From a virus, in the IMG/VR virus record IMGVR_UViG_3300046791_000326, positions 1-35,127 of that record: a stretch of 35,127 nt of DNA, one strand, 5' to 3'. Within the stretch, counting starts at the first letter, position 1, and each line of letters opens with the position of its first letter. The notes under the pieces were generated by a model that saw only the letters and a program-made list of their open reading frames with translations, ran no database searches and was not told the DNA's origin. This document shows positions 2,758 through 32,733 of this stretch, piece after piece. The translations under genes were made by a program, and so were the position numbers.

Positions 2758-2760
2758 CGC

Positions 2761-4011: not shown

Positions 4012-4023
4012 AGGATAGCGTCC

Positions 4024-5010
4024 ATGAGCCTCCTCGACGACATCGCCAAAATCCTCAACATCGCCAGCGGCCCTGCCAGCGCCATCGGCACCGGTCAACA
4101 GCAGGAACGCAACCGGTCAAACGAGTTTGCCGACGCCAGAGGCCGCACGCTCGCCAATATCTACGGCACGCAGGTCGGGGCGCAGACCGGCATCTACGGC
4201 AATCAGGCCAACAACCAGACCGCCCAGTACAACGCCCATCAGGACGCTCTCACGCAGGCGCTGCTGGGGGCCAGCCGCGAACAGACCGCCAATGCCGCCG
4301 TGGACCTCGACCGCCGCAAGTTCGCGCTCACGGCGCCAGGCACACGCGCGGGACAAGCCGCCTCCGGCTCCATCCTGCAGAACCTGCAACCCTCTCGGCT
4401 GCAAGGCGGCTCCGCCCAGCTCATGGCCCGCACCCCGACCATCACCGGTGGGGCCATCAATGCCCTCGGCCCCGGTGCGCGGGAAGCGGGACGACTGCTC
4501 GAGCAAGGGGCACTGGCGGGCCTGAGAAGCGGCGACACCTTCGACCCGCTCACGAAGACCGATTTCCAGGGCGGCGTGCTGGCCCCGCCGGGGATTCTGG
4601 CCGCCCCGTCGCCGCTCGCTTCCCCGACCTTGCCGGCCTATCAGGGACCGGGCGGGGTGGAGTCCGCGCTGGGGGCCATCGGGGCCGGCGGGGGGATTCT
4701 CAACGCCATCAAGAAACTCTTCAGCGGCAGGGGAGGCGGCGGCGGCCCCAGCGGCCCCGGCGATACCTTCGGCCTCGACCCGTACACCTACGGCGGCGGT
4801 GTCGATACGTCCCCACCCGTGCCTCCCCCCGGACCGACCGGCGAAACGGGTGGGCGTTTCTACACCGACCCGATGAACCTCGACCCGTTCAACCCCTACA
4901 CCTACGGTGGCCGCGTCGACACGAATCCGCCCACCGGCCCGGACACCAGCGGCAGCGCGGGCGATCTGGATGGCTACTGGGACGGGACCCAGTGGGTTTC
5001 GGGGTTTTAA
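4024..5010 (+). CDS. Predicted virion protein with YTYGG repeats
   Basis: A 328-residue protein with a good ribosome site (GAGGATAG) before ATG 4024. Residues 1-120 are helical and Gln/Asn/Ala-rich, resembling the C-terminal segment of the preceding protein. The middle is Gly/Ala-rich and includes a short hydrophobic Gly-rich stretch near residue 220. The last 80 residues are Pro/Gly/Asp-rich and hold two copies of the motif YTYGG-x-VDT (in FGLDPYTYGGGVDT and FNPYTYGGRVDT) plus a final YWDGTQWVSGF. A similar WDGT-x-WV end closes the next protein. It is probably a component of the same virion substructure. Confidence 0.6.
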   Translation: MSLLDDIAKILNIASGPASAIGTGQQQERNRSNEFADARGRTLANIYGTQVGAQTGIYGNQANNQTAQYNAHQDALTQALLGASREQTANAAVDLDRRKFALTAPGTRAGQAASGSILQNLQPSRLQGGSAQLMARTPTITGGAINALGPGAREAGRLLEQGALAGLRSGDTFDPLTKTDFQGGVLAPPGILAAPSPLASPTLPAYQGPGGVESALGAIGAGGGILNAIKKLFSGRGGGGGPSGPGDTFGLDPYTYGGGVDTSPPVPPPGPTGETGGRFYTDPMNLDPFNPYTYGGRVDTNPPTGPDTSGSAGDLDGYWDGTQWVSGF

Positions 5011-5013
5011 GTC

Positions 5014-6231
5014 ATGGCCTGGGGCATACCGGGGAACGTCGGCGAGATTTACCGCAAGCAGCAATCGGATGAACTGAAAGACCAGCTGCTCCAGCAGGAG
5101 ATGGCCGCTCGTATGCGGGAGGCCGACTTGCGCCAGCAGGAGCTATCCGCACGCATTGCTGAGCAGCGACAGATGGAAGCCGAACGGGCGAAGGCTGCTG
5201 AACGACAAACCTCACTGGACTTGGAGAAGCAACTCAGCCCAGGCGCACAGACACCGGCTGCTGCCGCCGTGCTCAGAAGGTATCCAGCGACCGCCGCACG
5301 GCTGAGCACAGCACGGCTTGACCCGGCGTTCGGGACGCCACCCATTGACGTGCTCGCGCCGAACGAGAAGCAGGCCGCAGACGCTACGACACTGAAGGAA
5401 CGTGATGCAGCACTGGAGCAAATCTCCGCCGACCCGCGCCTCAAGACGCTGGTGCCGTTGCTTAGAGGAGGACTGCTGACCAGTGTTCCGGCCAATGCGA
5501 TTCTGCCGGACGAGCCGAAGCCACCCACGAAATACCGCGTCACCGTCAAAGGCCCTCACGGCGAACCGATGGCGACCCTCAAGACCGAGGACGAACTCGG
5601 ACCAGGCGTTGAGGAGTATCGCGCACCGGACCGACCGCCACGCACGGAGATGACGCCGGGCCAGCAGTTCCAAGCCACCCGTCAACTCCGCAACGACTTC
5701 GTCCGAGAGACGAAAGCCGCAATGACCGTGCAGCAGCAACTCGCCATGATGGACTCGTCATTGGACGCGGCCAAAAAGGGCGACCTGGCCTCTGGCTCGC
5801 AGGGCGTGCTCGTGACGTTCCAGAAGATTCTGGACCCCAACAGCGTCGTGCGCGAATCGGAGTATGCACGCTCGGCCGCAGGCCAGTCGTTGCTGTCACG
5901 CATGGAAGGCGCGGCGACGCGACTCATCTCCGGTGGCGCGGGTGTGCCGGTCAATGAACTCGAAAAATTCGTGACGCTCGGCAAGCAGTTTGTGCAGGGT
6001 CAGGCGGACTCCGCCCGCGAGACGAAGACACAGATTGATGCGATTGCTTCTGAGTTCGGCATCGACCCGAAGAACATCACGCGCGATTATGGCGAGCCGC
6101 CGACAGGTGGCGGTGGGGGCGGTGGACAGGATTGGCTGAAGGTGCCAGCCGCACAGCGGCCCGTCGGTGCCAAGGCGACACTGCCCAACGTGGGTGCGGT
6201 GACGTGGGACGGCACGTCCTGGGTGAAGTAG
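5014..6231 (+). CDS. Coiled-coil virion protein
   Basis: A 405-residue protein starting three bases after the previous stop. Residues 10-75 form a strongly predicted coiled coil, dense in Glu, Gln, Arg and Leu. The middle is a mixed domain with VTVKGPHGEPMATLKT. Residues 210-355 are helical and include SLLSRMEGAATRLISGGAG. The end is a Gly-rich linker followed by VGAVTWDGTSWVK, a short beta motif also seen at the end of the preceding protein. Internal virion proteins of podovirus-like phages often have this make-up. No enzymatic motif is seen. Confidence 0.6.
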   Translation: MAWGIPGNVGEIYRKQQSDELKDQLLQQEMAARMREADLRQQELSARIAEQRQMEAERAKAAERQTSLDLEKQLSPGAQTPAAAAVLRRYPATAARLSTARLDPAFGTPPIDVLAPNEKQAADATTLKERDAALEQISADPRLKTLVPLLRGGLLTSVPANAILPDEPKPPTKYRVTVKGPHGEPMATLKTEDELGPGVEEYRAPDRPPRTEMTPGQQFQATRQLRNDFVRETKAAMTVQQQLAMMDSSLDAAKKGDLASGSQGVLVTFQKILDPNSVVRESEYARSAAGQSLLSRMEGAATRLISGGAGVPVNELEKFVTLGKQFVQGQADSARETKTQIDAIASEFGIDPKNITRDYGEPPTGGGGGGGQDWLKVPAAQRPVGAKATLPNVGAVTWDGTSWVK

Positions 6232-6235
6232 GTCC

Positions 6236-8215
6236 ATGCCGCAACAACGCTACGACGACGACGGCAATCCGATTGGCGGCGCTGCTGGCGCAGCACCCAC
6301 TCGTTTTGATGACCAAGGCAATCCCATCACCGAAGGTCCGCCAGAATGGCAGGGACCACTCACGCCACGGGAGCAACTGCGGCAGAAACTCACCACCCCC
6401 GATGACACACAACGAGCACGCGCAGCCGAAACGGCATGGGGGGATCTGAATCCCGTCAACCTTGCCCGTCAGGCATGGCAGGGCATCACCGGAGAACTGG
6501 AAGCCGGGCGGAATGCCATGCACGAAGGACGGCCGGTCGCCGGTGTGGCGCATACCGTCGCGAGCATGGTGCCGATTCTCGGCCCGATGGTGATGAACGC
6601 ACCCGGCCGGATGGCCGATGAACTGGAGAAGGCCCTCATTGCGCGCGGCAAGGGAGACACGACACGCGCCGTTGGCCATACCGCCGCAGGCTTGATTCCG
6701 GTGGCTGGCCCAATGGCCGCTGACATTGCGGAACAAGCCGCCTCTGGTGATACGGGTGGCGCAGCCGGACACCTCGTCGCACTCGGGCTCGGTCCGAAAG
6801 TCTACGGTGCTGCGGCTGGTCCTGCGGGGAGAGTCGCGAGTGGTGCAGCAGAGAAGGTCGCCGGAGCAGCCGAGCGTATCGGAGAACGCGCGCAGATGGC
6901 GGCGGCCGGTGCGAAAGAAGGCGGCATCGGTGGAGCGGTCTCGTCGGTCATTCGGAACGTCGCGCCGATTGAACCCGAAGCCCTGATGATGAAAGCCGTG
7001 CGCCCGCGCTCCTCGCAAGTCAACTTCGAGGCCAAACTGCCAGCGGCGATGGAGGAAGCGAAGGTCAGTGAGCAGGCGATGGGCAAACCCATCACCAATT
7101 TCGAGACCCTGGTCGAAGCCATCGACCTCGCCAAGAAGCGCGTGCGTGCCCGATACGACGAGATGGCCGGTCCGCTGCGCGAGCAAGGCATCACCCTCGA
7201 CCTCACCCCGGCCGCCGACAAGATGATGGCCGCAATTCCTGAGACGCTCCGCCTGGAGAATCCCGCCGCCGCCGCACGGATTGCCAAAACCGCCGACCTC
7301 TATCGCCGCCGCGTCCCGCTCGAAGCCGCCGAGCAGTATCTGAAAGAAGCCAACGCGCAACTGGAATCGTTCTACGCCAAGTTCCCAGGGTCGCAGCGCA
7401 AGGCGCTCGAAGCCAGCCCCGAAGCGGCCATTCCCAATGCGCGGGCACAGGGACTCCGCGAGGCGATCTATGGGGAATTGGACCGGGGCACCGGCGAAGC
7501 CGGAGCGGTTCAGCGGCGCTATGGGTCCCTGATGGCGCTAGAAGAAGAGGCGCTCCGTCAACTCAACGTCTCGAAACGGCTCAAGGAGCAAAGTCTCGCC
7601 GAACAGATCAGCACGCCGCGCGCCTACTTCGATATGGTCAAGGGCGGTGTCAAGGCGCTGAGTGGCAACCCGGCAGGCTTGGCGGATGCGCTCGGTGGCT
7701 ATGCCATGCGGGAAGCCTCGCGGTTTATGAAGGAGCAAGGGACTGCCGAGGCGATGATTCGACGCGCCTTCGAAGGCTATCGACCGCGTCGGCCAGCGGA
7801 TCTCCCCAACGTCCCGCAAATCGAGCGTGGAGCCATTGTCCGGCCAGCGGCGGAGACCAGCGGCATCACAGAGTCACCGCCGTGGATGCCGCAGAGTTAT
7901 CCCGTCTCGGAGCGACGCGGTCTGCCTCCGGCGCGCACCGTCCATGCAGTGGAAGGGATACCGGATACCAGTGGTCGCACTGAACCGCCGTCGTGGATGC
8001 CGAAGCAGTATCCACTCTCGCCGGAGACGGTAAAAACTCTGAGCCGAGAGGACCTCATCAGCCGCTTGTCCGGTGTACAGCGCACCCCTGGACTCGCCCC
8101 TGAAGAGGCTGCCCAACTGATGCAGGTTCTCCGCGACGAAATGCGACGCCGTGGGATCAGCCTCGTGCCGATCAAGGGGCCGGTCGCTCCTCGCACCTAC
8201 ACGCAACGTCGGTAA
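6236..8215 (+). CDS. Large predicted ejection/internal virion protein
   Basis: A 659-residue protein starting at ATG 6236, five bases after the previous stop. The N-terminus has two short copies of R-(Y/F)-DD-x-GNPI. Residues 90-210 are Ala/Gly-rich amphipathic or hydrophobic helices (VAHTVASMVPILGPMV and LIPVAGPMAADIAEQA), the type that lets ejection proteins enter a membrane. Residues 230-520 are long charged helices. The last 130 residues are Pro-rich and contain two copies of a TSG-x-TE-x-P-x-WMP-x-x-YP-x-S motif. It is the last large structural gene before the membrane and hydrolase genes. Its role in DNA ejection is inferred. Confidence 0.6.
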   Translation: MPQQRYDDDGNPIGGAAGAAPTRFDDQGNPITEGPPEWQGPLTPREQLRQKLTTPDDTQRARAAETAWGDLNPVNLARQAWQGITGELEAGRNAMHEGRPVAGVAHTVASMVPILGPMVMNAPGRMADELEKALIARGKGDTTRAVGHTAAGLIPVAGPMAADIAEQAASGDTGGAAGHLVALGLGPKVYGAAAGPAGRVASGAAEKVAGAAERIGERAQMAAAGAKEGGIGGAVSSVIRNVAPIEPEALMMKAVRPRSSQVNFEAKLPAAMEEAKVSEQAMGKPITNFETLVEAIDLAKKRVRARYDEMAGPLREQGITLDLTPAADKMMAAIPETLRLENPAAAARIAKTADLYRRRVPLEAAEQYLKEANAQLESFYAKFPGSQRKALEASPEAAIPNARAQGLREAIYGELDRGTGEAGAVQRRYGSLMALEEEALRQLNVSKRLKEQSLAEQISTPRAYFDMVKGGVKALSGNPAGLADALGGYAMREASRFMKEQGTAEAMIRRAFEGYRPRRPADLPNVPQIERGAIVRPAAETSGITESPPWMPQSYPVSERRGLPPARTVHAVEGIPDTSGRTEPPSWMPKQYPLSPETVKTLSREDLISRLSGVQRTPGLAPEEAAQLMQVLRDEMRRRGISLVPIKGPVAPRTYTQRR

Positions 8216-8228
8216 ACAGGAGGCTTCT

Positions 8229-8405
8229 GTGATTTCCCTCATCCTCGTGCTCGTTATCGTCGGGGTGGTGCTGTATCTCTTAGAGACGTACATCCCGATG
8301 GACCCGGCGATCAAGACCGTGATCCGCGTGGTGGTCGTGCTCGTACTGTGCCTCTGGCTGATCCAGACATTCGTCGGCGACATCCCGCTGCCCAAGTTGC
8401 GCTAG
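8229..8405 (+). CDS. Small two-segment membrane protein, Thivi_2564-like
   Basis: A 58-residue protein with a clear AGGAGG ribosome site before GTG 8229. It has two hydrophobic segments, about residues 2-19 and 31-49, separated by the turn ETYIPMDPAIK, and a short tail. The pattern of two helices around a YIPMD-x-x-IK linker matches what I remember of the small Thivi_2564 family found in phages and bacteria, whose function is not established. Its place directly before the glycoside-hydrolase-like gene and after the last virion gene would suit a holin or other lysis membrane protein, but that is inference. Confidence 0.7.
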   Translation: MISLILVLVIVGVVLYLLETYIPMDPAIKTVIRVVVVLVLCLWLIQTFVGDIPLPKLR

Positions 8406-8414
8406 GAGTCTTGA

Positions 8415-9938
8415 GTGACGAACTTCAAATTCGTAGTCGACCGCATCAACAACGCCTACCCCTGGCTGCTCCAGTGGAACACGCACGAGGCGTGCGGTGA
8501 ATTTCTCCAGCGCGTCTGCAATGAACCGGAGTGCAAAGCGGAGCGCGTGGGCCTGCTCTCGAAAGACCCAGGCGAGAACGGCTACGAATTTCCCAATGGG
8601 ATTCGGACGTCGCACGACGTCATCGCATTACCCAATGGCGAGCGTACAGATATCGTGCAGAGCGCGGGCGGGCATCCGGCTCCCGGTGGCCCCGCATGGG
8701 GCGTCATCCCTCCCGACCAGTGGCGCCCGCATAACGTCTGGGTGGACATCTCGAGCTGGCCGATTTACGACTCGCACACGCCGCATGATGCCGGTCCGAC
8801 GGGTGTATGCGAAGTTGGGTTCGGGTGGTTCTGCCTGATGACGGCACTCGCCGAATGGCCCGACGAAGCCAAGGCCAACATGGACTGGATTCTCAAGAAC
8901 ATCAACCCCTCCTGCTTCCGGGTGATGCTCGCGGTTGAGGGTGAGTCGCACATGCAGGGCAGCGACCCCGATGTCTGGTCAGAAGCTGGCGTGTTCATCA
9001 ACGAAGATTGGGAGAACCGCTACCGCAAGATGCTCGAATGGGTCAAGAGTTTCGGCAAGCAAGTCCACGCCACCGTCTATGGAGGCCGGAACCAGACCCC
9101 CACTGAGGCCGATCGCAATGCCTTTCACAGCCGCATCATCGCGGCGAGCGACGGTCTGTGGGATGCCATTCGCTCCTTCGAATGCGCCAACGAGTACAAG
9201 GTCAATAAGTGGACGACGCCGGAAGTGCGGGCAATGGGACGCGACCTGCGCGCCAAACTCCCTGCAGGATTCCGCCTCTCGCTGTCGTCACCGGATGCGG
9301 CACACACCGGGTCTGGCGATATGAGCAACGAGGTGATGGAGGCGTCCTTCGAGGAACTCTATGGCGGTGATGACCACGCCGGGGCCAACGAAATCACCAT
9401 CCACACGATGCGGGACGGCGGCAAGTGGAGCGACCCGTACTCCTACAACTTCTGTATGCCCGACATGCCGAAGATCAACAACGAGCCGCCGGGGCCTGGC
9501 AGTTCAGCAGGCGGGATGTACACGACTGGCGCCGATGTGGAGAAGGATCTCAGTAACACCATCGGTGCGGGCTGGGCGATGTACATGGGCCACTCGGAGT
9601 GGTGCGTGTGGAACGGCCATTTGCCTGATTGCTACTATAACTCTTGGCGCGAAATCAAGAACGTGTGGGAACTTCCCAACATGCCTGAGTGCGCAGCAGC
9701 GATGAAGGCTCACACTGGAGAACCCGAGATGGCGATTCCCGCATATGACGAGGGCTGGATTTCTGATGTCGTGCGGCCTGCAGTCGTGGCTCAGTATACC
9801 GAAGCAAACCATCCACTCGACGACATGTACCCGGTGTGGATCACCCGCACGCAGTACGATTACGATGCTGGATTGAGCAAGGACGACAGCCTCAATAAAC
9901 ACATCAGCGAATTGCGTGTCGCCCTTGGGTTGTCTTAG
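8415..9938 (+). CDS. Glycoside-hydrolase-like phage protein (two domains)
   Basis: A 507-residue protein from GTG 8415, with GGAG at 8405-8408. Residues 1-110 are a separate domain with a conserved-looking core (EACGEFLQRVC and the segment PNGIRTSHDVIALPNG) that I have seen in phage proteins of unknown function. Residues 125-430 resemble a TIM-barrel hydrolase of clan GH-A type. ECANEY near 256-261 has the A-N-E form of the acid/base strand, and INNEPPGP near 354-361 is a candidate nucleophile strand. HSEW occurs near 393. The protein sits after a small membrane protein and before the convergent early operon, so a cell-wall or capsule-degrading role is plausible. The substrate is not visible and no signal peptide is seen. 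Confidence 0.55.
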   Translation: MTNFKFVVDRINNAYPWLLQWNTHEACGEFLQRVCNEPECKAERVGLLSKDPGENGYEFPNGIRTSHDVIALPNGERTDIVQSAGGHPAPGGPAWGVIPPDQWRPHNVWVDISSWPIYDSHTPHDAGPTGVCEVGFGWFCLMTALAEWPDEAKANMDWILKNINPSCFRVMLAVEGESHMQGSDPDVWSEAGVFINEDWENRYRKMLEWVKSFGKQVHATVYGGRNQTPTEADRNAFHSRIIAASDGLWDAIRSFECANEYKVNKWTTPEVRAMGRDLRAKLPAGFRLSLSSPDAAHTGSGDMSNEVMEASFEELYGGDDHAGANEITIHTMRDGGKWSDPYSYNFCMPDMPKINNEPPGPGSSAGGMYTTGADVEKDLSNTIGAGWAMYMGHSEWCVWNGHLPDCYYNSWREIKNVWELPNMPECAAAMKAHTGEPEMAIPAYDEGWISDVVRPAVVAQYTEANHPLDDMYPVWITRTQYDYDAGLSKDDSLNKHISELRVALGLS

Positions 9939-16251: not shown

Positions 16252-16343
16252 TGGCTCATCCCCTGTACCGCGGCGAGAATCAACAGGCTCATCCACAGCA
16301 AACTGACGATGGCGAGGCCGAGCCGTTCAGCGTGGGACCGCAT
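16248..16343 (-). CDS. 31-residue single-helix membrane peptide
   Basis: The ATG at 16343 lies in the last codons of the HNH gene, and the stop overlaps the next gene (GTGA). Residues 8-26 (LGLAIVSLLWMSLLILAAV) form one hydrophobic helix long enough to cross a membrane, preceded by a charged start. Small membrane peptides like this in phage early operons can modify host membrane processes. It could also be a coincidental frame, but coupling at both ends argues for expression. Confidence 0.45.
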   Translation of the reverse strand: MRSHAERLGLAIVSLLWMSLLILAAVQGMSQ

Positions 16344-16704
16344 AGACCCGTCCGGGGCGCCCGACCTTCCGGCCTTTGTGGATGGCGTCGTGGATGTTGT
16401 CGAGTTGCGTCCCGAGCATCAGGTGTTCGGGGTTGCAGCACGGCGGCTGGTCGCAGGAGTGGAGCACGTACATCCCGTCCGGGATGGTGCCGTGCGTCAG
16501 CCGATAGGCGATGCGATGTGTCTGCTCGTTGATCTGGCGGCCATCCTCGCGACGCCCAACGGCACAGAGGCCGTAGCCGTTGACCTGCTTGGCGCCGAGC
16601 CAGAACCAGCACTCACCCTCGCGGCGGTCGACGCGGCCCCAGAAGTGGGCACGCTTGGTGTCGGTCCACGTCGCCACGGCGGCTGCGGCTGCGGTGGTGC
16701 TCAT
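16327..16704 (-). CDS. HNH endonuclease (HNH_3 type)
   Basis: A 125-residue protein from ATG 16704, which overlaps the upstream stop (ATGA). The core has EGECWFWLGA, then THRIAYRLTHG and DGMYVLHSCDQPPCCNPEHL followed by LGTQLDN, the pattern of the I-HmuI-like HNH_3 group. The C-terminal basic stretch would contact DNA. The same motif order appears in the HNH gene at 29957, so this phage carries two relatives. It probably acts as a homing or nicking enzyme. Confidence 0.8.
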   Translation of the reverse strand: MSTTAAAAAVATWTDTKRAHFWGRVDRREGECWFWLGAKQVNGYGLCAVGRREDGRQINEQTHRIAYRLTHGTIPDGMYVLHSCDQPPCCNPEHLMLGTQLDNIHDAIHKGRKVGRPGRVYAVPR

Positions 16705-16865
16705 GACGCCTTGGCCCATGACCCGTGAACGCTGGTGCCGGCGACCCAGGCTTCGACTTTGGCTTTCGAGTAGCGATGGGGCACGGGGGACTCGAGGTGC
16801 TTGCGGCTACGGGAGATACCGAGGGCTTCCCACAGTTCCCGGTGCGTGAGCGTGAGGCGGTCCAT
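16701..16865 (-). CDS. Excisionase-like winged-helix protein
   Basis: A 54-residue protein with ATG at 16865, overlapping the upstream stop by one base. LTHRELWEALGISRSR forms a helix-turn-helix, and HRYSKAKVEAWVAG is the strand plus helix that closes a MerR-like or HTH_17 winged helix. This architecture is standard for excisionases and small phage regulators. It is the second gene of the leftward operon, next to the Cro-like regulator and about 1.1 kb from the integrase, so directing excision is a reasonable inference. Confidence 0.6.
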   Translation of the reverse strand: MDRLTLTHRELWEALGISRSRKHLESPVPHRYSKAKVEAWVAGTSVHGSWAKAS

Positions 16866-17944: not shown

Positions 17945-18922
17945 ATGAAAAAGACCAAGCCCCCGAAGGGCATCCGGCAGAAGGGCAATCGCTGGGAAGT
18001 GTATGTCACGGTGAACGGCGAGCGGGTCTGGACGACCTTCCCGCTGGCGACGCCGCTGCAGACGATGGAGGTGTGGCGCCGTGACCAGCGTCATGTGCCG
18101 CCGCCCTCGGACAGTTTCGCGGCGGACATCGCGTCGTATTTGCTCACCGTGCAGCACATGCCGACCTTCCATGAGCGCAGTTTTCATCTGCAGTTCTGGC
18201 AGCGGGCATTGGGGCCGGAGCGAGCTCGCGCCACGATTACGACGACCGAGATCAATCAGTGTCTCAGCAAACTGAAAGCCAGCGGAAAATCGAACACGAC
18301 GGTCCGTCACTACCGCACAGCACTGCTTCATCTGTTCAACCGGCTCGACCCGGATGGGCTGAATCCGGTGAAGCGGACCTGGAAGCCGGCGGACCCGCCG
18401 CTCGAAGCTCGGGCGCTCGAGCCTGCGGTCGTGTGGCAGATTCTGAAGGCGATCAAGGGACCAAAGACGAAGGCGCGGCTCTGGGTGATGGCGACGACGG
18501 GGCTCCCGCACAAGCAACTGATGCAACTGACGCCGGCGTCGGTGGACTGGCCCGCCTCGCGGGTGCTGGTGCTGGCCAGGCGCAAGGGTGCTGGGGCCGC
18601 GGGTCGGTGGCTGCCGCTGAGCAAGAGCGCCCGGTATGCCTTCAGGAGTCTCGACAAGGCGGAAGGCTGGGGCGCGTTCAGTGTGGGCGGCATGCGGCAG
18701 ACGTTTCAGCGGGCCTTGAAAGCACTGGGCTTGCCGTCCACGATCCGGCCGTACGACATCCGGCACATGGTCGGGACCGAGCTCTACCGGGCGACGGGCG
18801 ATCTGGCGACGGTGGCGCGGCTGCTGGGGCATGCGGACATCAAAACGGCGAGCCGGTACAGCCTCGCGGCGCACGAGCTCAACGACCGGCTGGCGATGGA
18901 TAAAGTGCGGATCGGTGGATAG
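17945..18922 (+). CDS. int: Tyrosine recombinase (phage integrase) with atypical active site
   Basis: A 325-residue protein: N-terminal arm-binding part (GIRQKGNRWEVYVTVNGE), core-binding helices at 55-145, and a catalytic domain at 155-310. Catalytic candidates are K214 (RRKG), R273 (YDIRH), H296 (LLGH) and nucleophile Y305 (SRYS). The first arginine, usual in TGLR, is replaced by proline (TGLPHKQL, P188). The first His of H-x-x-R is Tyr (Y270). The protein otherwise has normal length and order, and attP follows 45 bases after the stop, so it is probably functional in a divergent integrase group. Confidence 0.85.
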   Translation: MKKTKPPKGIRQKGNRWEVYVTVNGERVWTTFPLATPLQTMEVWRRDQRHVPPPSDSFAADIASYLLTVQHMPTFHERSFHLQFWQRALGPERARATITTTEINQCLSKLKASGKSNTTVRHYRTALLHLFNRLDPDGLNPVKRTWKPADPPLEARALEPAVVWQILKAIKGPKTKARLWVMATTGLPHKQLMQLTPASVDWPASRVLVLARRKGAGAAGRWLPLSKSARYAFRSLDKAEGWGAFSVGGMRQTFQRALKALGLPSTIRPYDIRHMVGTELYRATGDLATVARLLGHADIKTASRYSLAAHELNDRLAMDKVRIGG

Positions 18923-24008: not shown

Positions 24009-24074
24009 GAACATGCTGAACTGGGTGCCGGTTCCGTGCGACACCGAGACCCGCGACTAGGGCACGTATCCGGT

Positions 24075-24842
24075 ATGCGACCGTACTACGAAGAGGCTGG
24101 GGTCACGATTTACCACGGGGATTGCCGCGAGATGTTGTCCGGCGTCCGTCCTGTCTGCGACGTGCTCTGTACGGACCCCCCGTATGCATCGGCGGCGGCG
24201 ACGGCGACAACGGGCTGGGCACGGCAGAAATGGGGTGGCAACTGGGGCGACATGTCCATCCTGACGATGCTCGCGGAGTTGGTGCTGGATTCTGCGGCCT
24301 TGTCGCCCATCCATGAAGCGGTGTGGTTCGCGGATCATCTCGGGTATGCGGCGCTGATTCCGTCGTTCTTCCGGCGTTATCAGGTGGTGCAGAGCGTGGT
24401 GTGGGACCGGGACATGCTGGGGATGGGGGCCTATTTCCGCAAGCAGACGGAGATGGTGATTTACGCGCGGCACACCGACTCGGCGCTGTTTCGCGTGCTG
24501 GACGCGCGGGACCTGATTCGGCTGCGTCCGTCATCGGCCGAGAAGGAGCATCCCGCTCAGAAACCGCTCGATCTGCTCATCGCCCTGCTGTCGCCGCTGG
24601 GCGGGCAACGGGTGCTTGATCCGTTTGCGGGGACGGGCACGACGTTGTTGGCGGCGAAGCAACTCGGTCGTCAGGCCATCGGGATAGAAATCGAGGAACG
24701 GTACTGCGAAATCGCGGCGAAACGGCTGAGTCAAGGGGTGCTGTCCTTCACTGAGGCACGCAGTCCCTATGACGCGGGTCTCGGTGCGGGTCGGGAGGCG
24801 ACTGAGCCGATGAACATGTTCTCTGAATCGTTTGGAGGGTGA
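24075..24842 (+). CDS. DNA methyltransferase (N6-adenine or N4-cytosine), DPPY type
   Basis: A 255-residue protein from ATG 24075. Motif IV (TDPPY, residues 33-37) stands near the N-terminus, and the S-adenosylmethionine site (VLDPFAGTGTT, 180-190, then GIEIEERYCEIA) near the C-terminus, the order of beta-class amino-methyltransferases. HPAQKPLDLL before motif I is also typical. The middle 100 residues should recognise the target. No restriction enzyme gene is adjacent, so this is an orphan phage methylase, likely for protection or regulation. Its tail EATEPMNMFSESFGG recalls that of the second methylase gene. Confidence 0.85.
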   Translation: MRPYYEEAGVTIYHGDCREMLSGVRPVCDVLCTDPPYASAAATATTGWARQKWGGNWGDMSILTMLAELVLDSAALSPIHEAVWFADHLGYAALIPSFFRRYQVVQSVVWDRDMLGMGAYFRKQTEMVIYARHTDSALFRVLDARDLIRLRPSSAEKEHPAQKPLDLLIALLSPLGGQRVLDPFAGTGTTLLAAKQLGRQAIGIEIEERYCEIAAKRLSQGVLSFTEARSPYDAGLGAGREATEPMNMFSESFGG

Positions 24843-25161: not shown

Positions 25162-26392
25162 TTGACGACGTGGTCGGTGCTCGGCGGGGACGTGCGAGAC
25201 AAGCTCAGGGAGATCCCAGAGGGTTCCGTGCAGACGTGCGTCACGTCGCCTCCCTACTGGGGCCTTTAGGGATTACGGGACGGCGACGTGGGTGGGCGGG
25301 GATGGTGGGTGCGACCACGCACAGGAAGCCCCTCGCTTCAACGGCCCGAAGCAGACGAGCGCACAGGTATCCGGCCACGCATCGAAAGCGGAGTCGCACT
25401 GGCGGAAGGCGTGTCAGAAGTGCGGCGCTCAGCGCATCGACAGCCAGATAGGGCTGGAGCCGACCCCGGAGGCGTACGTGCAGTCCATCGTCAGCGTCTT
25501 TGCGGAGGTGTGGCGGGTGCTGCGGGACGATGGGACGCTGTGGCTGAATCTGGGGGATTCGTATGCGAGCAGCACGAAGGGAGACACCCGCACACCGGAA
25601 GAATTAGCGGCCAAGAGTCGGTTGGGATGGGCGAGCGGACCGAACACATCAGCCAATCAATGCTACCGCAATCAAGGATCGGTGCGAGCGTTGGATCATG
25701 GTCTGAAGCCCAAGGATCTCGTCGGCATCCCGTGGCGTGTCGCGTTTGCGTTGCAAGCGGCAGGCTGGTATCTGCGGAGCGACATCATCTGGGCGAAGCC
25801 CAATCCCATGCCAGAGTCAGTGACGGATCGGCCGACGAAGGCGCATGAGTACCTGTTCCTGCTGAGTAAGCGGGAGCGGTACGTCTACGATGCGGAGGCG
25901 ATCCGTGAACCGAACTCTCCATCCACGATTGCGGCATTCGGAATATCGGCTACACGGACACCATTCCCAGGAACCGCCCCAGATCGCAATGACTCTGGCG
26001 GCGGCGGGTTGAAGCACTGTGGTGTGAATGAGGACGGCCGTAATAAGCGCAGCGTGTGGACCGTCGCCACCCAGCCCTATCCCGAGGCGCACTTCGCAAC
26101 ATTTCCAGAAGCCCTGATCGAGCCGTGCATCTTCGCAGGCTCACGCATCGGTGATACGGTGCTCGACCCCTTCTGCGGCAGCGGCACGACTGGTGTGGTG
26201 GCGATTCGCCATCAACGAGCCTTTCTCGGCATCGAACTTAATCCAAATTACCTCGAATTGGCTCGCACGCGCATCGGCAACGAAGCCCCGCTCTTCTCCA
26301 CTGAGGCACGGTGCCCAACTCCGCGGGTCTCGGTGTCCTGCGCGAGCGAAGCCGACCAGCCCAACATGTTCTCTGAAGCCGTCCCTGCTTGA
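25162..26392 (+). pseudogene. DNA methyltransferase gene interrupted by a one-base frameshift
   Basis: Two frames join into a normal beta-class methylase. From TTG 25162 or GTG 25177 the first gives GGDVRDKLREIPEGS and TSPPYWGL, then stops at TAG 25267-25269. With one T of the TTT at 25265-25267 removed, the product continues RDYGT in frame to 26392, including DPFCGSGTTG and GIELNPNYLELA. The catalytic SPPY lies before the break, so the downstream 366-codon frame alone would be inactive. It may be a sequence error, decay or recoding. The tail QPNMFSEAVPA resembles that of the first methylase. Confidence 0.8.
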
Positions 26393-26477
26393 ACCCCTCC
26401 TCATTGTCGGCATCCTGGCCTTCGGCGTGAGTACCGCGGTGAGTGCCCTGCTTTACTGGTGGAGTCGGAAGCGATGA
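26385..26477 (+). CDS. Possible membrane micro-gene before the lectin-like gene
   Basis: A short open frame reads EPLLIVGILAFGVSTAVSAL followed by LYWWSRKR, one hydrophobic helix with a basic end. Its stop overlaps the ATG of the lectin-like gene (ATGA at 26474-26477). No ATG, GTG or TTG start lies nearby in frame, so a CTG or ATT start would be needed. It could be real and coupled, or the end of a decayed gene. Confidence 0.3.
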   Translation: MLEPLLIVGILAFGVSTAVSALLYWWSRKR

Positions 26478-28243
26478 CCTACAGCGAGCTCATTCTCAGC
26501 CATTCCCCGTCGAACTACTGGAAACTTGGCGAATCGAGTGGGCTGACGGCGGCGGACAGTGCGGGGAGTGCGCCGGGGACGATTTCCGGGGGTGTGACGC
26601 TCGCGCAAGCCGGAGCGCTGGCGGACGGCACGACGGCGATGACCTTCAATGGGACGACGGGCAAGATTGTGGCGGGGTCGGGTTCGTTGCCCGCGGCATC
26701 GACGCTGGAAGTGTGGCTGAATCACGCGGCGGCCGTGCAAAGTCCCGTCGTGACCATCACGCAGGCGGGGGTGGAACAACCCACACTCTATATCGACGCC
26801 GCGGGGAAACTCTGGGTCTATGACGCCCCCAACACCGGCCTGAGTAGCGTCAGCCTGCTGGCGACAGGCGGGTGGCATCATGTGGTCGTGGTGTGGGACA
26901 CCGGAACCCTCCGCCTGTATCTGGACGGCGTGGTGGACAGCACGATCGGCAGCGCGACGCGCACCGTGATCGGCGTGGGACCCATCGCCATTGGCCATGA
27001 TCCGGCCTTTGGCGCGGGCACATCGGCGTTTTTCAACGGCTCCCTGGATGAAGTGGCCATCTACCCCCGCGCCCTCACCCCCACCGAGATCAGCGACCAC
27101 TACGCCGCCCGACTCACAACCGCCGTGCCCTCCGCCGGCTGCGACCACACCACCGTCTGGTCGAAACACCTCGCCACCCTCAGCGCCCCGACCGTCGAAT
27201 CTGAACGGGCGTACCTCGCGACGCTCTACGGCGAACCCGGCGGCAGCGACATGAGCACGCTCGTCTCGAGATGGCTGCAGGCGATCACGTGTGGGACCGC
27301 TGTGGCCACCCCCGCCGCCCCGACCCTCAGTCTCGTGTCCCCGAATACCGGCACCCAGGGCACGATGGTCACCGTCACCCTCACCGGCACCGGATTTATC
27401 GCGGGCGCCACCGGTGTGAGTGTGAACGGCGTCGGCATCTCGGTCGTGAACATCCAGGTCCTGAGCCCGACGTCCCTCACGGCGGATCTCGCCATCGCCG
27501 CCGCCGCCCCACCCACCGCCCGGTCGATCACCGTCACCCACGCCGGCGGCTCCGCCTCACAGGCCTTCACCGTGAGTGCCGCCGTCGTCGTCCTCGGCAC
27601 CGTCGTCCTCCTCGTCGGGGCCGACACCGCAGTGGTGGATGAGAGTCTCACCGCCCGGACCCTCACCCTCGGCGGCAATGCCGCCCGCACCACCACCCCG
27701 GTCAAATACGGCGCCGGGGCCCTCACCTTCGATGGCACGGGCGATTTTGTGAGTGCCGCCTGGAGTCCCGACTTCAGTTTCGGCGCCGGGGATTTCACCA
27801 TCGAAGGCTGGTTCCGGTTCCTGGTGAAAACCGACCTCCAGGCCATGCTCGGCTGGTGGCACAATACCTTCACCGCCCAGTGCAGTTGGTTTTTCTACAT
27901 TTCCGGCGGCTTCCTGCGCTTCCGTGACGTCATCGGCACCACGACCAGGGACTTACAGGTGGCCTGGGTGCCGACCCTCGGGCAGTGGTACCACCTCGCC
28001 GTCGACAAGAGCGGCACCATCGCCAGGGTCTACGTGGACGGCGTCGTCGTGGCGACCAATCCGTCCTTTACCGGGACCCTCAATGACGGCACGGTGGTGT
28101 TCACCCTCGGGCGACTCGGCAATGATGCGACCTTTGCGTCGTTCGATTTCAATGGCCAGATGGACGAGGTCCGGGTCGTGCGCGGCGGCGCGCAGTACGC
28201 CGGGGCCTTCACCCCGCCCACCGGCCCCCTCCCACGCCCATGA
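26474..28243 (+). CDS. Lectin-like virion protein: LamG, IPT/TIG, LamG
   Basis: A 589-residue protein from ATG 26474 with GGAG upstream. Residues 10-215 are a concanavalin/LamG sandwich (SNYWKLGESSG, TLEVWLNH, WHHVVVVWDTGTLRLYLDG, then FFNGSLDEVAIYPRALTPTE). Residues 288-372 are an immunoglobulin-like IPT/TIG domain (LSLVSPNTGTQGTMVTVTLT, then TGTGFIAG). Residues 385-585 are a second LamG domain (FTIEGWFRF, WYHLAVDKSGTIARVYVDGV, GQMDEVRVV). No signal peptide is seen, so it is probably on the virion surface, binding host glycans. Its place just before the terminase is unusual for a fibre. Confidence 0.8.
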   Translation: MTYSELILSHSPSNYWKLGESSGLTAADSAGSAPGTISGGVTLAQAGALADGTTAMTFNGTTGKIVAGSGSLPAASTLEVWLNHAAAVQSPVVTITQAGVEQPTLYIDAAGKLWVYDAPNTGLSSVSLLATGGWHHVVVVWDTGTLRLYLDGVVDSTIGSATRTVIGVGPIAIGHDPAFGAGTSAFFNGSLDEVAIYPRALTPTEISDHYAARLTTAVPSAGCDHTTVWSKHLATLSAPTVESERAYLATLYGEPGGSDMSTLVSRWLQAITCGTAVATPAAPTLSLVSPNTGTQGTMVTVTLTGTGFIAGATGVSVNGVGISVVNIQVLSPTSLTADLAIAAAAPPTARSITVTHAGGSASQAFTVSAAVVVLGTVVLLVGADTAVVDESLTARTLTLGGNAARTTTPVKYGAGALTFDGTGDFVSAAWSPDFSFGAGDFTIEGWFRFLVKTDLQAMLGWWHNTFTAQCSWFFYISGGFLRFRDVIGTTTRDLQVAWVPTLGQWYHLAVDKSGTIARVYVDGVVVATNPSFTGTLNDGTVVFTLGRLGNDATFASFDFNGQMDEVRVVRGGAQYAGAFTPPTGPLPRP

Positions 28244-28374: not shown

Positions 28375-29358
28375 ATGGCCGCTCGCTGCTGTTGGTGTAA
28401 CGCGCCGCTCACCCGCTGGGTCGCCCAGCCGGGCATCACCGAGCGACCGTTCGTGTGCCCGTCACTGCCGTGTCAAGAGCGCATCTATCGCAAGAGCGTC
28501 GTGCTGAAACAGAAAGGGAAAAGTCCGCGGCCACTCTTCATCCCACTGCCCCGCCAGTGCGAGTGGATCGAGGCCGCGATGGACAAACGCATCACCCGCT
28601 TACTCGTGGGCGGTGCGGCCGGACCTGGCAAATCACGCTGGCTCCGCGAGATGCTCTACCGCTTCGCGCAACTCATCCCCGGCTTTCATGGACTCTTACT
28701 GCGCCGCACGCACAAGGACCTCGACCAGTCCCATCTCAGATTCGTCCCCTTCGAGGTCTCACTCAGAGGCGGCACCTGGAAAGTCGCGGATCGCGTCATC
28801 GAGTTTCACCACAAGGACTCCGCGCCGAGCATCATTCGCTGCGGCCATCTCGAAGATTCCGGCTCGCTGCAGAATTACCTGTCGGCCGAATACGACGTCA
28901 TCGCACCGGACGAACTGGTCACGTTCCAACGCGACGAAATGATCGAACTCTTCACCCGCGCCCGCTCGAGCAATCCGCACCTACTGAAACTCCGCGGCGG
29001 CTACCAGTATCAGGCCCTCAATGAAGACGGCGTCCTGGAACAGATGACCACCGACGGCTCACTGGTCATTGCGTCGAGTAACCCCGGTGGCAAGGGCGCA
29101 CTCTGGATCAAGGAATACTTCATCGACCACTGCCCCGACCCCGCCGAAGCCCCGTCGTATCAACCCGAGTTCTGGGCCTTTCATGGCGCGAGACTGCGGG
29201 ACAATCCGTATCTCACGTCGGGCTACGCCTCGACGCTGCGCGACTTGCCCGAGGTCCGGCGCCGACAACTGCTCGATGGGGACTGGTCCGTGTTCGCGGG
29301 GCAGTTCTTCAACTGGCGCCAGTCGCAGCATGTCGCCGACCTCGGCATCCACCCGTGA
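28375..29358 (+). CDS. terL: Terminase large subunit, ATPase part (split gene)
   Basis: A 327-residue protein. Residues 1-35 hold two Cys pairs (CCWC and CPSLPC) as an N-terminal metal-binding addition. Residues 79-87 (GGAAGPGKS) are Walker A; YDVIAPDEL at 173-181 is Walker B with catalytic Glu180. IASSNPGG near 240 is the coupling motif. RLRDNPYLTSGY and the LLDGDW element near 300 end the ATPase domain. The usual nuclease domain is missing and is encoded by the next gene, which overlaps by four bases. The protein drives DNA packaging at the portal. Confidence 0.9.
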   Translation: MAARCCWCNAPLTRWVAQPGITERPFVCPSLPCQERIYRKSVVLKQKGKSPRPLFIPLPRQCEWIEAAMDKRITRLLVGGAAGPGKSRWLREMLYRFAQLIPGFHGLLLRRTHKDLDQSHLRFVPFEVSLRGGTWKVADRVIEFHHKDSAPSIIRCGHLEDSGSLQNYLSAEYDVIAPDELVTFQRDEMIELFTRARSSNPHLLKLRGGYQYQALNEDGVLEQMTTDGSLVIASSNPGGKGALWIKEYFIDHCPDPAEAPSYQPEFWAFHGARLRDNPYLTSGYASTLRDLPEVRRRQLLDGDWSVFAGQFFNWRQSQHVADLGIHP

Positions 29359-29960
29359 GACTTCGAGACCTGTCGGTGAAGCTCGGCATGGACTGGGGCC
29401 AGAGTGCGCCCGGCTGCTTTCTCTGTGGTGTGGCCTTGCCCGACAATCATGCCGCAATCGTCTGGGAGATGAAATTCCAAAAGCAGTCCGTCCGCGAAGT
29501 GGCCGAGGCCATTCGTGAACAGACGCTCGGTGAGTGGAAACTCCCAAAGATGCCTGTTTGCTATTGTGATCCCGCGATGCGCATTGCCACCGGCCAGATT
29601 GGAGAAGATTTCGTCGGCACGTTCAGTCGCTATAAAGTGACGCTGACACCCGTGTCGAACAACCGTCAGCTCGGCTGGCAACGGGTCCATGAAGCGCTCG
29701 CCATCGACCCGTCGACGAAGACGCCGTGGCTCACCGTGCATCCCCGCTGCAAGTATCTGATTCGCACGCTGCCGATGATGCTGCAGGATGAGGGGAAGCC
29801 CGAGGACCTCGACACGGACTCGGACGATCACGCGGTCGACGCCTTACGCTATTTGATCATGGGTGGCTTGCGCCACAACAGTAAGAGCCTTATTCTCAAG
29901 CCCGAACCTCAAGGCTCGTGGGGGCAGATGAAGAGATTCCTCAAACGAACCGCCGCATGA
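29355..29960 (+). CDS. terL: Terminase large subunit, nuclease part (split gene)
   Basis: A 201-residue protein beginning at GTG 29355 inside the stop of the ATPase gene (GTGA). It is the RNase H-like nuclease domain: GMDWGQSAPG with Asp13, VCYCDPAMR with Asp72, and TDSDDHAVDALRYLIMGG with Asp158 and Asp162. These acidic residues coordinate the two metals that cut concatemeric DNA. In most phages this domain is fused to the ATPase. Here a separate start and the overlap imply two proteins that assemble, unless a -1 frameshift fuses them. Confidence 0.85.
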   Translation: MRLRDLSVKLGMDWGQSAPGCFLCGVALPDNHAAIVWEMKFQKQSVREVAEAIREQTLGEWKLPKMPVCYCDPAMRIATGQIGEDFVGTFSRYKVTLTPVSNNRQLGWQRVHEALAIDPSTKTPWLTVHPRCKYLIRTLPMMLQDEGKPEDLDTDSDDHAVDALRYLIMGGLRHNSKSLILKPEPQGSWGQMKRFLKRTAA

Positions 29961-30610
29961 GAGCGAAATTGACCGAAGACGCCATCCATGCGATTCGGGC
30001 GTCAAGAGAATCCGGCAACGTACTGGGGAGACAGCACGGAGTCTCTCGGACCACGATTGCATTGATTCGTCGCCGGATTGCGTGGAGCCACGTCCAGGAA
30101 ACGCCTCAGGAAGAGGAAACCCGCAAGACACTCCACGCCCCAGTGACCCTCGCCGACCGACTGCTCCCGCATATCGCCGTCAGCGCCCTCGATGACTTCG
30201 ACGTGTGCTGGCCGTGGACGGCTGGGCGTCATAGCAGCGGATATGCCACACTCCGAACCGCTCCGCAGGGTCCCAAGGCCTACGTCCATCGACTCATGTG
30301 GGAGCTGACATGGGGCACGCCGGTCCCGGACGGGAAGTACGTGCTCCATGCCTGCGACAACCGAATTTGTTGCCGACCCTCCCATCTGTGGCTCGGCACC
30401 CTTCGTGACAATGCGCTTGACCGCGAAGCCAAAGGCCGAGGCCGTCAGCCCATTGGTGAAGACCACCGTCGGTCGAAGTTGAAGAACGCGCAAGTACTGG
30501 AAATTCGCGCGTCCAAACGGTCGGAGGATGACCTCGCCGCGCACTATGGTGTGAGTCCCAGCGTCATCGGGGCCGTTCGCAGACGAATCACCTGGAGGCA
30601 CTTGCCGTGA
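29957..30610 (+). CDS. HNH endonuclease flanked by two HTH repeats
   Basis: A 217-residue protein from ATG 29957, coupled to the upstream stop. Residues 5-45 (LTEDAIHAIRASRESGNVLG, then HGVSRTTIALIRRRIAW) and the last 45 (LKNAQVLEIRASKRSEDDLA, then YGVSPSVIGAVRRRITW) are copies of one helix-turn-helix. Between them is an HNH_3 core: CWPWTAG, YVHRLMWELTWG, YVLHACDNRICCRPSHLWLG. Placement between terminase and portal, two genes normally adjacent, fits a homing endonuclease or a packaging-associated HNH protein. Confidence 0.85.
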   Translation: MRAKLTEDAIHAIRASRESGNVLGRQHGVSRTTIALIRRRIAWSHVQETPQEEETRKTLHAPVTLADRLLPHIAVSALDDFDVCWPWTAGRHSSGYATLRTAPQGPKAYVHRLMWELTWGTPVPDGKYVLHACDNRICCRPSHLWLGTLRDNALDREAKGRGRQPIGEDHRRSKLKNAQVLEIRASKRSEDDLAAHYGVSPSVIGAVRRRITWRHLP

Positions 30611-32733
30611 TTGGAGATTATCTGCCAGACGCTCCCGCGATGACGCTTGAACCTCCGACAGAGGAGATGGGGCCACGATTAGCGATACCGCTATCAGAAG
30701 AGAAATTGGCACTGTTTCAGAAAGAAATCGAACGGGCGCGGCAGTTACGTGAAGACAAAATCGTGGAATGGTGCGTGTCTGACAACCTCGACCGTTATGC
30801 CCCGGCCAAGAAGAATGATCCAGGCGTGAACGTCGGAGTGGATTTCAGGGACGTGGAGAGAAAAGGGGCGGCGCTTTTTTATGATCAACCGACCGTGAAC
30901 GTCCAGCCCGGCCCCGACGGAAATCCCCAAGCCGCGGTGCTGCACCAAGAGTTACTCAACGGCCTGCTCAGCGCGCAGAAGATGAACGCCAAGGCCACGG
31001 CGCTCAAAGCCATCAAAGACTGCCTCGTCGCCATCCAACCCGCCTTCACCAAAATCGGCTACCTCCCCGTCACCGTCGACATGCCGCAAGTCAATCCCAT
31101 GACCGGTCAACCGGAAATGGTCCCGGTCGTGGTGCATGATGAAGTCTTCTGGTCACGTATCTCAGGAAAAGCGGGCCTGCTGCCCGTCGACTTCAAAGAT
31201 ACCGATTACGACAGGGCGCAATGGATTGGGTATGACTGGAAGAAACCCGTCTCCCAGGTCAAACGCGATTACGGATTTCCCCCCGACTGGGAGCCGCCGA
31301 CGGGTGGGACGCGAGAGGTCACCTTCAATGAAGGCAAAGACCCGGCTGGCAGCAGCGACCCGCAATGCACCGGCACCGAACTCTGGTACCGCGCCTGCCT
31401 CTTCGATGACTCCGTCTCCCATCCCGAGCTCCTGCGCGTCCTTGTCCTGCTGGATGGCTACGACCAACCCGTCAAACATGAAAACGCCCCCTGGCAAACC
31501 CTCGACCCGACCGGCCGCCTCACCGCCGACTCCATCCAGGGCTACCCGATCCACCCGCTCACGCTGAGAGATTTTCCCGACTCCGCCTGGGTCCCCGCCG
31601 ACGCGAGTCAAACAGGACCGCTCACGCACGAGATCAACACCTACTTGACTCAAGCGAAAGCCAAACGCGACTCAAATCGGCTCATCCTGGCCACGGATGT
31701 GACACGCATCGACATCGAAGCGGCTGGTCGCATCGCGGATATGGACATCTTCAAGGGCATGGGCCTCTCGATTCTGCCGGTGCAAGAAAACGCACTCGTG
31801 GGGCAGAACACGGCGATGCAGCAAGTGCCCACGCTGGATCTGGGACGCGAAACCTACCTCGGCCTTCAGATCTTCGAATCCAAGAGGGATCAGGTGCTCG
31901 GCATTTCAGCGCCACAAGGCGGGGTCCAGAACGACACGAGCCGTACGGCCACTGAGATTGCCACGGTCCAGCGAAATGCAGACGCGAGGTTTGAACAGGA
32001 GCGACAGCGGGCGCTCGCGTGGTGGATCAGAGGTGTGCAAAAGCTGTCGGCATTCGTCGTGAGGTACGGGGACCGTTGCGCTGAAGATATTCTCGGGAAG
32101 CCACGCGCCCAGCAGTGGATGCAATTCCGCCAGCAGGGATTTCTCGGGTCGTTCACTTTTGAAGTCCAGATAGACAGCGGGAAGTACCTGGACATCGAGC
32201 AAGACCGCAGGCAGTTTTTGCAGGTTGTGAATTTTGCCGCCAAGTCTCCGTTTATCCGGCAGGACACGATGTGGAAGACCTTCTGCCAGAAGTTCGGATA
32301 CGACCCGCAGGAATGGCTCACTCAGCCTCAACCGCCGAAGCCTGAGCCCCCGAAGCTCTCTATGGCGATTAACGGGGATGATCTATCTGAGCCGCAGTCG
32401 CCGATGATAGTGGAAATCTTGGCCGCGCAAGGGATTCAGATTTCGCCCGCTGCGATCCAGAACATGGTTTTGGCAAAGAAGGCCCAGCAGCAGGCCGAGC
32501 AACAGGTCGCTCTGACCAAAGCCAATCCCGTCTTAGGTCTGATGGCTGAACCACCAGCCGCCGAACCGCAGCCGCCGCAGCCTGGAGCGCCCGGAGCGCC
32601 ACCCGTCAATCCACAGACACCTGGACCTGCCGACCAAGCCGAACGGCTGGACAAGCACGGCCTGCAGGAGAGCGGCAGTTTGCCGGGTGCAGGCTCCGCA
32701 CCAGGACCGGGCGCCGGTCCCGTCATGCCATGA
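30607..32733 (+). CDS. Portal protein
   Basis: A 708-residue protein, the size of portals in P22-like and other short-tailed phages. It follows terminase genes and contains segments typical of portals: an N-terminal helical clip (KLALFQKEIERARQLREDKI), FKDTDYDRAQWIGYDW, WYRACLFDD, the long PADASQTGPLTHEINTYLTQ helix, and SAPQGGVQNDTSRTATEIAT. The C-terminal 120 residues are Pro/Gly/Gln-rich and disordered. The portal ring docks terminase and forms the DNA channel. GTG 30607 overlaps the HNH stop. Confidence 0.8.
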   Translation: MIGDYLPDAPAMTLEPPTEEMGPRLAIPLSEEKLALFQKEIERARQLREDKIVEWCVSDNLDRYAPAKKNDPGVNVGVDFRDVERKGAALFYDQPTVNVQPGPDGNPQAAVLHQELLNGLLSAQKMNAKATALKAIKDCLVAIQPAFTKIGYLPVTVDMPQVNPMTGQPEMVPVVVHDEVFWSRISGKAGLLPVDFKDTDYDRAQWIGYDWKKPVSQVKRDYGFPPDWEPPTGGTREVTFNEGKDPAGSSDPQCTGTELWYRACLFDDSVSHPELLRVLVLLDGYDQPVKHENAPWQTLDPTGRLTADSIQGYPIHPLTLRDFPDSAWVPADASQTGPLTHEINTYLTQAKAKRDSNRLILATDVTRIDIEAAGRIADMDIFKGMGLSILPVQENALVGQNTAMQQVPTLDLGRETYLGLQIFESKRDQVLGISAPQGGVQNDTSRTATEIATVQRNADARFEQERQRALAWWIRGVQKLSAFVVRYGDRCAEDILGKPRAQQWMQFRQQGFLGSFTFEVQIDSGKYLDIEQDRRQFLQVVNFAAKSPFIRQDTMWKTFCQKFGYDPQEWLTQPQPPKPEPPKLSMAINGDDLSEPQSPMIVEILAAQGIQISPAAIQNMVLAKKAQQQAEQQVALTKANPVLGLMAEPPAAEPQPPQPGAPGAPPVNPQTPGPADQAERLDKHGLQESGSLPGAGSAPGPGAGPVMP

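Follow-up and report, generated by a model that had tools for sequence, protein, structure and literature searches.

Among the marker genes of virus taxonomy is that of the terminase large subunit (TerL), which, to our knowledge, has been described as a universal chain of two domains, an ATPase and a nuclease; in one leading model it is the nuclease domain that moves the DNA. In the virus DNA analyzed here (IMG/VR record IMGVR_UViG_3300046791_000326, positions 1 to 35,127; this whole stretch of 35,127 nucleotides is hereafter called the window), the two domains are found in two adjacent genes, which a first-pass annotation had taken for a genuine division of TerL. The question raised by this locus is whether it encodes a terminase of two separate chains, and what such an arrangement would mean for the packaging motor.

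ATPase and nuclease genes of the window

The two genes, their motifs and the genes that follow them are listed below.

28375..29358, + strand: gene for the terminase ATPase, corresponding to the N-terminal half of TerL, 327 aa, ATG start, stop TGA at 29356-29358
28609..28635, + strand: Walker A GGAAGPGKS, residues 79-87 of the ATPase ORF
28891..28914, + strand: Walker B and catalytic glutamate YDVIAPDE, residues 173-180 of the ATPase ORF
29074..29091, + strand: coupling motif SSNPGG, residues 234-239 of the ATPase ORF
29355..29358, + strand: GTGA, shared by the stop of the ATPase gene and the start of the nuclease gene, with the geometry of translational coupling
29355..29960, + strand: gene for the terminase nuclease, corresponding to the C-terminal half of TerL (RNase H fold), 201 aa, GTG start, stop TGA at 29958-29960
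29391..29393, + strand: acidic residue D13 of the nuclease ORF, DWG motif
29568..29570, + strand: acidic residue D72 of the nuclease ORF, CDPA motif
29826..29840, + strand: D158 and D162 of the third acidic motif, DDHAVDALRY, of the nuclease ORF
29957..30610, + strand: free-standing HNH_3 endonuclease gene at the nuclease-portal junction, overlapping its neighbors on both sides (ATGA and GTGA)
30607..32733, + strand: portal gene (SU10_portal and phrog_1216 match weakly; homologues occupy this position in L001, L003 and L005)

Re-reading of the sequence bore out the coordinates first assigned to the two terminase genes, as well as the four-base overlap between the GTG start and the upstream stop codon (GTGA, 29355-29358). 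The accompanying claim that both halves keep their catalytic residues was also upheld, as all motifs could be located and were conserved in alignments of 33 rows (ATPase) and 30 rows (nuclease). Conservation was at least 90% at G79, G80, A82, K86 and S87 of Walker A; E180 of Walker B was invariant and D179 almost invariant, and N236, P237 and G239 of the coupling motif did not vary. The nuclease residues D13, D72, D158 and D162 were each conserved at a level of at least 90%, D158 being invariant. The ATPase ORF matched TerL families of PHROG (phrog_979, E 4.9e-23), and the nuclease ORF matched the Pfam family Terminase_6C (PF17289) with 26.8 bits, above the cut-off of 22.6.

When solved structures were searched by sequence, the nuclease matched D6E TerL alone and the ATPase had no match. 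AlphaFold models of the ATPase and nuclease had mean pLDDT values of 90.4 and 85.0, respectively, with low confidence in the last ∼15 residues of the ATPase model, as expected for a free tail. Foldseek matched the ATPase model to the TerL structures of D6E, Sf6, P74-26 and T4, and the nuclease model to those of D6E, SPP1 and P22; D6E TerL was the top match for both. As in TerL, the pair comprises an ASCE ATPase with Walker A, Walker B/catalytic glutamate and coupling motif and an RNase H-fold nuclease with three acidic motifs, and lies in the packaging module adjoining the portal gene, which was recognized by its weak profile matches and conserved position. What departs from TerL is that the two domains do not share one polypeptide, being encoded by separate genes in the window and in 22 further contigs.

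Several other features of the window and its relatives were recorded. The N-terminus of the ATPase (28387-28473) contains a conserved cysteine cluster (C5, C6, C8, C28 and C33) resembling a small zinc ribbon ahead of the ATPase core. The gene adjoining the terminase (26459-28243) encodes a 594-aa protein with Laminin_G_3 and TIG domains, whose relatives in L001 and L003 have the middle part in common and a different N-terminal part. Two nearby genes (24036-24842 and 25292-26392) encode N6/N4 DNA methyltransferases, and a second HNH_3 match is located at 16396-16524 within an ORF on the minus strand (16327-16719). Six long forward ORFs at 1132-9938 had almost no Pfam or PHROG match, the ORF at 5014-6231 alone hitting phrog_13634. 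The presence of a tyrosine recombinase gene (Phage_integrase, 17945-18922) suggests that the virus may be temperate. Among relatives, the nuclease ORFs of L096 (4001-5488), L106 (3875-5479) and L118 (2019-3482) are ∼490 residues long and carry an insertion near the DDHA motif; judging from weak Hint/intein profile matches, these insertions are likely inteins at the nuclease active site.

Relatives of the locus and the number of chains

The first-pass annotation had recognized that the split would be doubtful if close relatives all carried one fused gene. The reverse was observed: every one of the five closest IMG/VR relatives (L001, L002, L003, L005 and L006; 67-80% protein identity) is split, and the position of the break is the same to the residue. 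The two-gene arrangement, which the annotation had proposed to look for in other genomes, was identified by wider scans and HMM classification in 23 distinct IMG/VR contigs (the window counted, near-copies removed), and fused relatives were found as well (L009, L010, L011, L125, L014 and L015); because contigs were retrieved by similarity to split proteins, these split and fused counts are not frequencies. A scan of genome contigs with the nuclease alignment gave a single match, a 6.9-kb contig (L131) in a Rhizobium metagenome-assembled genome (MAG), which is split too, and a scan of bacterial genome contigs with the ATPase alignment gave none; as evidence for the host, the MAG contig is weak. 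The best matches among isolated phages were ∼30% identical, and the four records examined (L132-L135) were fused. The viruses concerned form an uncultured group of tailed bacteriophages.

The junction takes several forms. Stop and start codons overlap in 12 of the 23 split contigs. In nine of the 23 the overlap is of four bases and the start codon lies 12 residues ahead of DWG, L117 and L118 have an ATGA overlap, and L113 has an overlap of one base; ATGA or GTGA overlaps occur in 11 of the 23 and in the MAG contig. Short gaps separate the two genes in L005, L105 and L108, and 0.4-2.2 kb lies between them in the remaining eight of the 23. In L099 (1219-3372) and L104 (2147-4001), ∼2 kb of sequence without assigned identity separates ATPase and nuclease, one frame of the L099 gap having a repeated VVSHRGSL motif; L106 also has other sequence without assigned identity between the two genes.

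An indel error made in sequencing or assembly would look much like this, with two frames that follow one another but are shifted. However, the closest relatives are split at the identical residue with conserved start codons, and several relatives hold an intact gene in the gap, so sequencing or assembly error was rejected as the source of the split in the window. Decay of the gene is countered by purifying selection on both halves. For the pairs with measurable dS (many other pairs being saturated at synonymous sites), dN was well below dS: dN/dS values were 0.04/0.48 (ATPase) and 0.18/1.61 (nuclease) for L001/L003, and 0.20/1.09 and 0.03/0.22, respectively, for L005/L006. Error or decay as a whole has a negligible chance of being correct. 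On the basis of the 23 split contigs, the selection on both genes and the models matching TerL structures, the initial proposal of a genuine division into ATPase and nuclease was well founded.

Separate genes might still yield one chain. In particular, it had been suggested that a -1 slip at the overlap could restore the fusion, and the nuclease frame is indeed open upstream of the ATPase stop in the window and in other overlapping relatives. Frameshifting or readthrough nevertheless appears very unlikely as the way to the working protein. The frame relation of the two genes is 2, 0 or 1 depending on the relative; whole genes lie between them in L002, L094, L114, L115 and L126; and the stretch in which a slip could occur is just 16-22 nt in L001, L003 and L096. 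No XXXYYYZ heptamer is present near any stop, the sole match being in L006, 145 nt upstream and in the wrong phase. Moreover, the nuclease start codon and the N-terminus MRxRDL are conserved. The suggested slip was hence dropped, given the varying frames and the lack of a slippery heptamer near the stop.

Another way to a single chain would be to join the two genes as exons after transcription, as in the terL transcript of ICP1, or as split-intein exteins after translation. Spliced-out introns are known in terL of ICP1 and SIOphi (PMC10448857, PMC11878797), and endonuclease genes are present at the junction in some relatives. Yet a four-base overlap leaves no space for an intron, and there is no space for intein halves because the ATPase ends 26-31 residues past GDW and the nuclease starts 12 residues before DWG. 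A self-splicing intron at the junction was not found: Rfam gave no match at gathering scores in the window, L002, L005, L006, L012 and L092, nor up to E 0.5 in L002, L094, L114, L115, L126, L099, L104 and L106. Such splicing seems even more improbable than frameshifting.

The residues from GDW to DWG number 26+12 or 31+12 in split forms and 35-36 or 43 in fused relatives; these counts are about equal, therefore nothing has been lost at the linker. The division lies within the usual linker between the two domains, and every conserved residue is retained. A search of ten records (seven split and three fused) located one ATPase and one nuclease place per record, with two exceptions, the nuclease of G008, which is divided by an intein, and a fragment of ATPase scoring 15.5 bits in G006; none of the seven split records contained a second, fused TerL. 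The varying frames, the lack of slippery heptamers near the stops, the absence of an Rfam match to an intron and the lack of space for a split intein make two chains the most satisfactory reading.

Conflicting histories and endonuclease genes at the junction

The two halves of the terminase have different histories. In the ATPase tree, the window clade grouped with fused L009, L010, L011 and L125 and split L108 (100/100), whereas in the nuclease tree it grouped with L012, L014, L103 and others (100/100). Forcing the ATPase data to the nuclease-supported clade worsened lnL by 82 (AU p 2e-5), and forcing the nuclease data to the ATPase-supported clade worsened it by 102 (AU p 7e-41); it should be noted that these clades were named after the trees had been seen, which weakens the p values and hardly affects the size of the difference. 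Split and fused forms interleave on both trees. Parsimony required four split/fused changes in the ATPase tree and in the nuclease tree alike, fused L014 is nested among split relatives, and a single clade uniting the split forms, again defined with the trees already in view, was rejected (AU p 1.3e-5 and 5.7e-15). In these viruses, the conflict between the trees of the halves is a warning not to treat TerL as a single evolutionary unit.

More recent events are seen in pairs of close relatives. In L005/L006, identity is 73% in the ATPase gene and 93.5% in the nuclease gene and changes at the junction (third positions, 0.546 vs 0.865; Fisher 9e-15). In L001/L003 it is 89% in the ATPase gene, 73% in the nuclease gene and 85% in the part of the portal that was aligned (third positions, 0.752, 0.502 and 0.659, respectively). 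The 5' end of the ATPase gene is itself mosaic in L005/L006, therefore recombination is not confined to the junction.

Further analysis of the junctions revealed that a small, free-standing gene for a recognized endonuclease occupies five of the 23: in L002 and L094 the gene between ATPase and nuclease is of the HNH_3 family, and in L114, L115 and L126 it encodes endonuclease VII (34-42% mutual identity of the proteins). The split point of the window itself has no endonuclease, its HNH gene lying one junction downstream, between nuclease and portal, where L006 has a homologue in the same position. The HNH_3 proteins encoded by L002 and L094 share 44-55% identity with those of the window and L006. 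Most of these endonuclease genes overlap the adjoining gene by ATGA or GTGA, at their start or at their stop. Thus, the junction behaves as a site of insertion and recombination.

Whether insertion caused the split is a different matter, since phages often carry endonuclease genes close to their terminase genes (PMC10448857) and their association with the junction alone is no proof of it. With regard to origin, and leaving the two-chain reading untouched, the gene may instead have been divided by fission at the linker without mobile endonucleases, which would have settled later in ready-made overlaps. This is consistent with the occurrence of the same HNH_3 family at the nuclease-portal junction of the window and L006, already a gene boundary, and with the recognition of an endonuclease in just five of the 23 split junctions. 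On the other hand, Aeh1 nrdA and T4 gene 60 demonstrate that genes can be split by endonuclease insertion (PMC2988022), and two unrelated endonuclease families are found at the ATPase-nuclease junction. We would give fission before insertion a little less than an even chance.

A two-chain motor and its known counterparts

We consider it probable (roughly 0.8) that these viruses possess a two-chain terminase, in which a predicted ATPase pump and a predicted nuclease cutter act without a covalent link, and whose junction is a site of insertion and recombination. The upstream gene would provide a ring ATPase with a lid and a short free C-terminal tail, and the downstream gene an RNase H-fold nuclease, whose translation is probably started by the same ribosomes via the stop-start overlap. 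The two chains could then assemble on the portal without a covalent link, as a ring of ATPase chains with nuclease chains bound, the former pumping DNA and the latter cutting the genome end. Joint operation of both chains in a single motor is our inference.

When T4 gp17 was divided at the linker, ATPase and nuclease activities were kept and translocation was abolished (reviewed in PMC3012670 and PMC9958956), so that the covalent link matters at least in T4. In light of this result, a natural split means either that a non-covalent interface takes the place of the link or that the nuclease does no mechanical work in the motor. An alternative reading would place the nuclease protein outside the motor, for example acting only at genome ends, with a pump that is a ring of ATPase alone. 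Such a ring has been suggested for phi29-like motors. Separate genes permit separate dosage, and the exchange of halves between lineages suggests that they depend loosely on each other. However, the adjacent and mostly overlapping gene order is kept across lineages and the domain order is identical in fused relatives, and we regard a nuclease outside the motor as unlikely.

A broader proposal can be made, to which we assign slightly under even odds: that there is a widespread class of tailed viruses with two-chain terminases, in which the nuclease is a separate, exchangeable motor subunit and endonuclease genes at the junction promote swapping of the halves. If so, a packaging motor that exists in nature could do without the covalent link between ATPase and nuclease that T4 needs. 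Two-chain terminases of natural viruses offer a way to test whether this link is required, and with separate chains it can be asked directly if the nuclease domain takes part mechanically in pumping, regulates it or does nothing but cut.

In the literature searched, largely papers available without subscription, there was no earlier report of a split TerL. Three short PHROG families labelled terminase large subunit (phrog_10250, phrog_5653 and phrog_9526; 199-280 positions) match one half only, a likeness that is by profile label and length and not by members. The intron- or intein-interrupted terL genes of ICP1, SIOphi, Mic1 and JA1 resemble the present case in that terL is targeted by mobile elements; in those viruses splicing restores a single chain, whereas no splicing element was found here. 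Closer parallels are Aeh1 nrdA, split by mobE, and T4 gene 60, split by mobA, in which one protein is likewise made as two polypeptides and the split junction is associated with a free-standing HNH gene (PMC2988022). The present split differs from them in that most junctions have no endonuclease, two endonuclease families are involved and many lineages are affected. Finally, the pair shares with single-chain TerL (T4 gp17, D6E TerL and Sf6 gp2) the same two domains, motifs, order and fold, and is divided at the inter-domain linker seen in the D6E and T4 structures, but is made from two genes as two chains. On this basis, we classify it as a two-chain variant of TerL rather than a new family.
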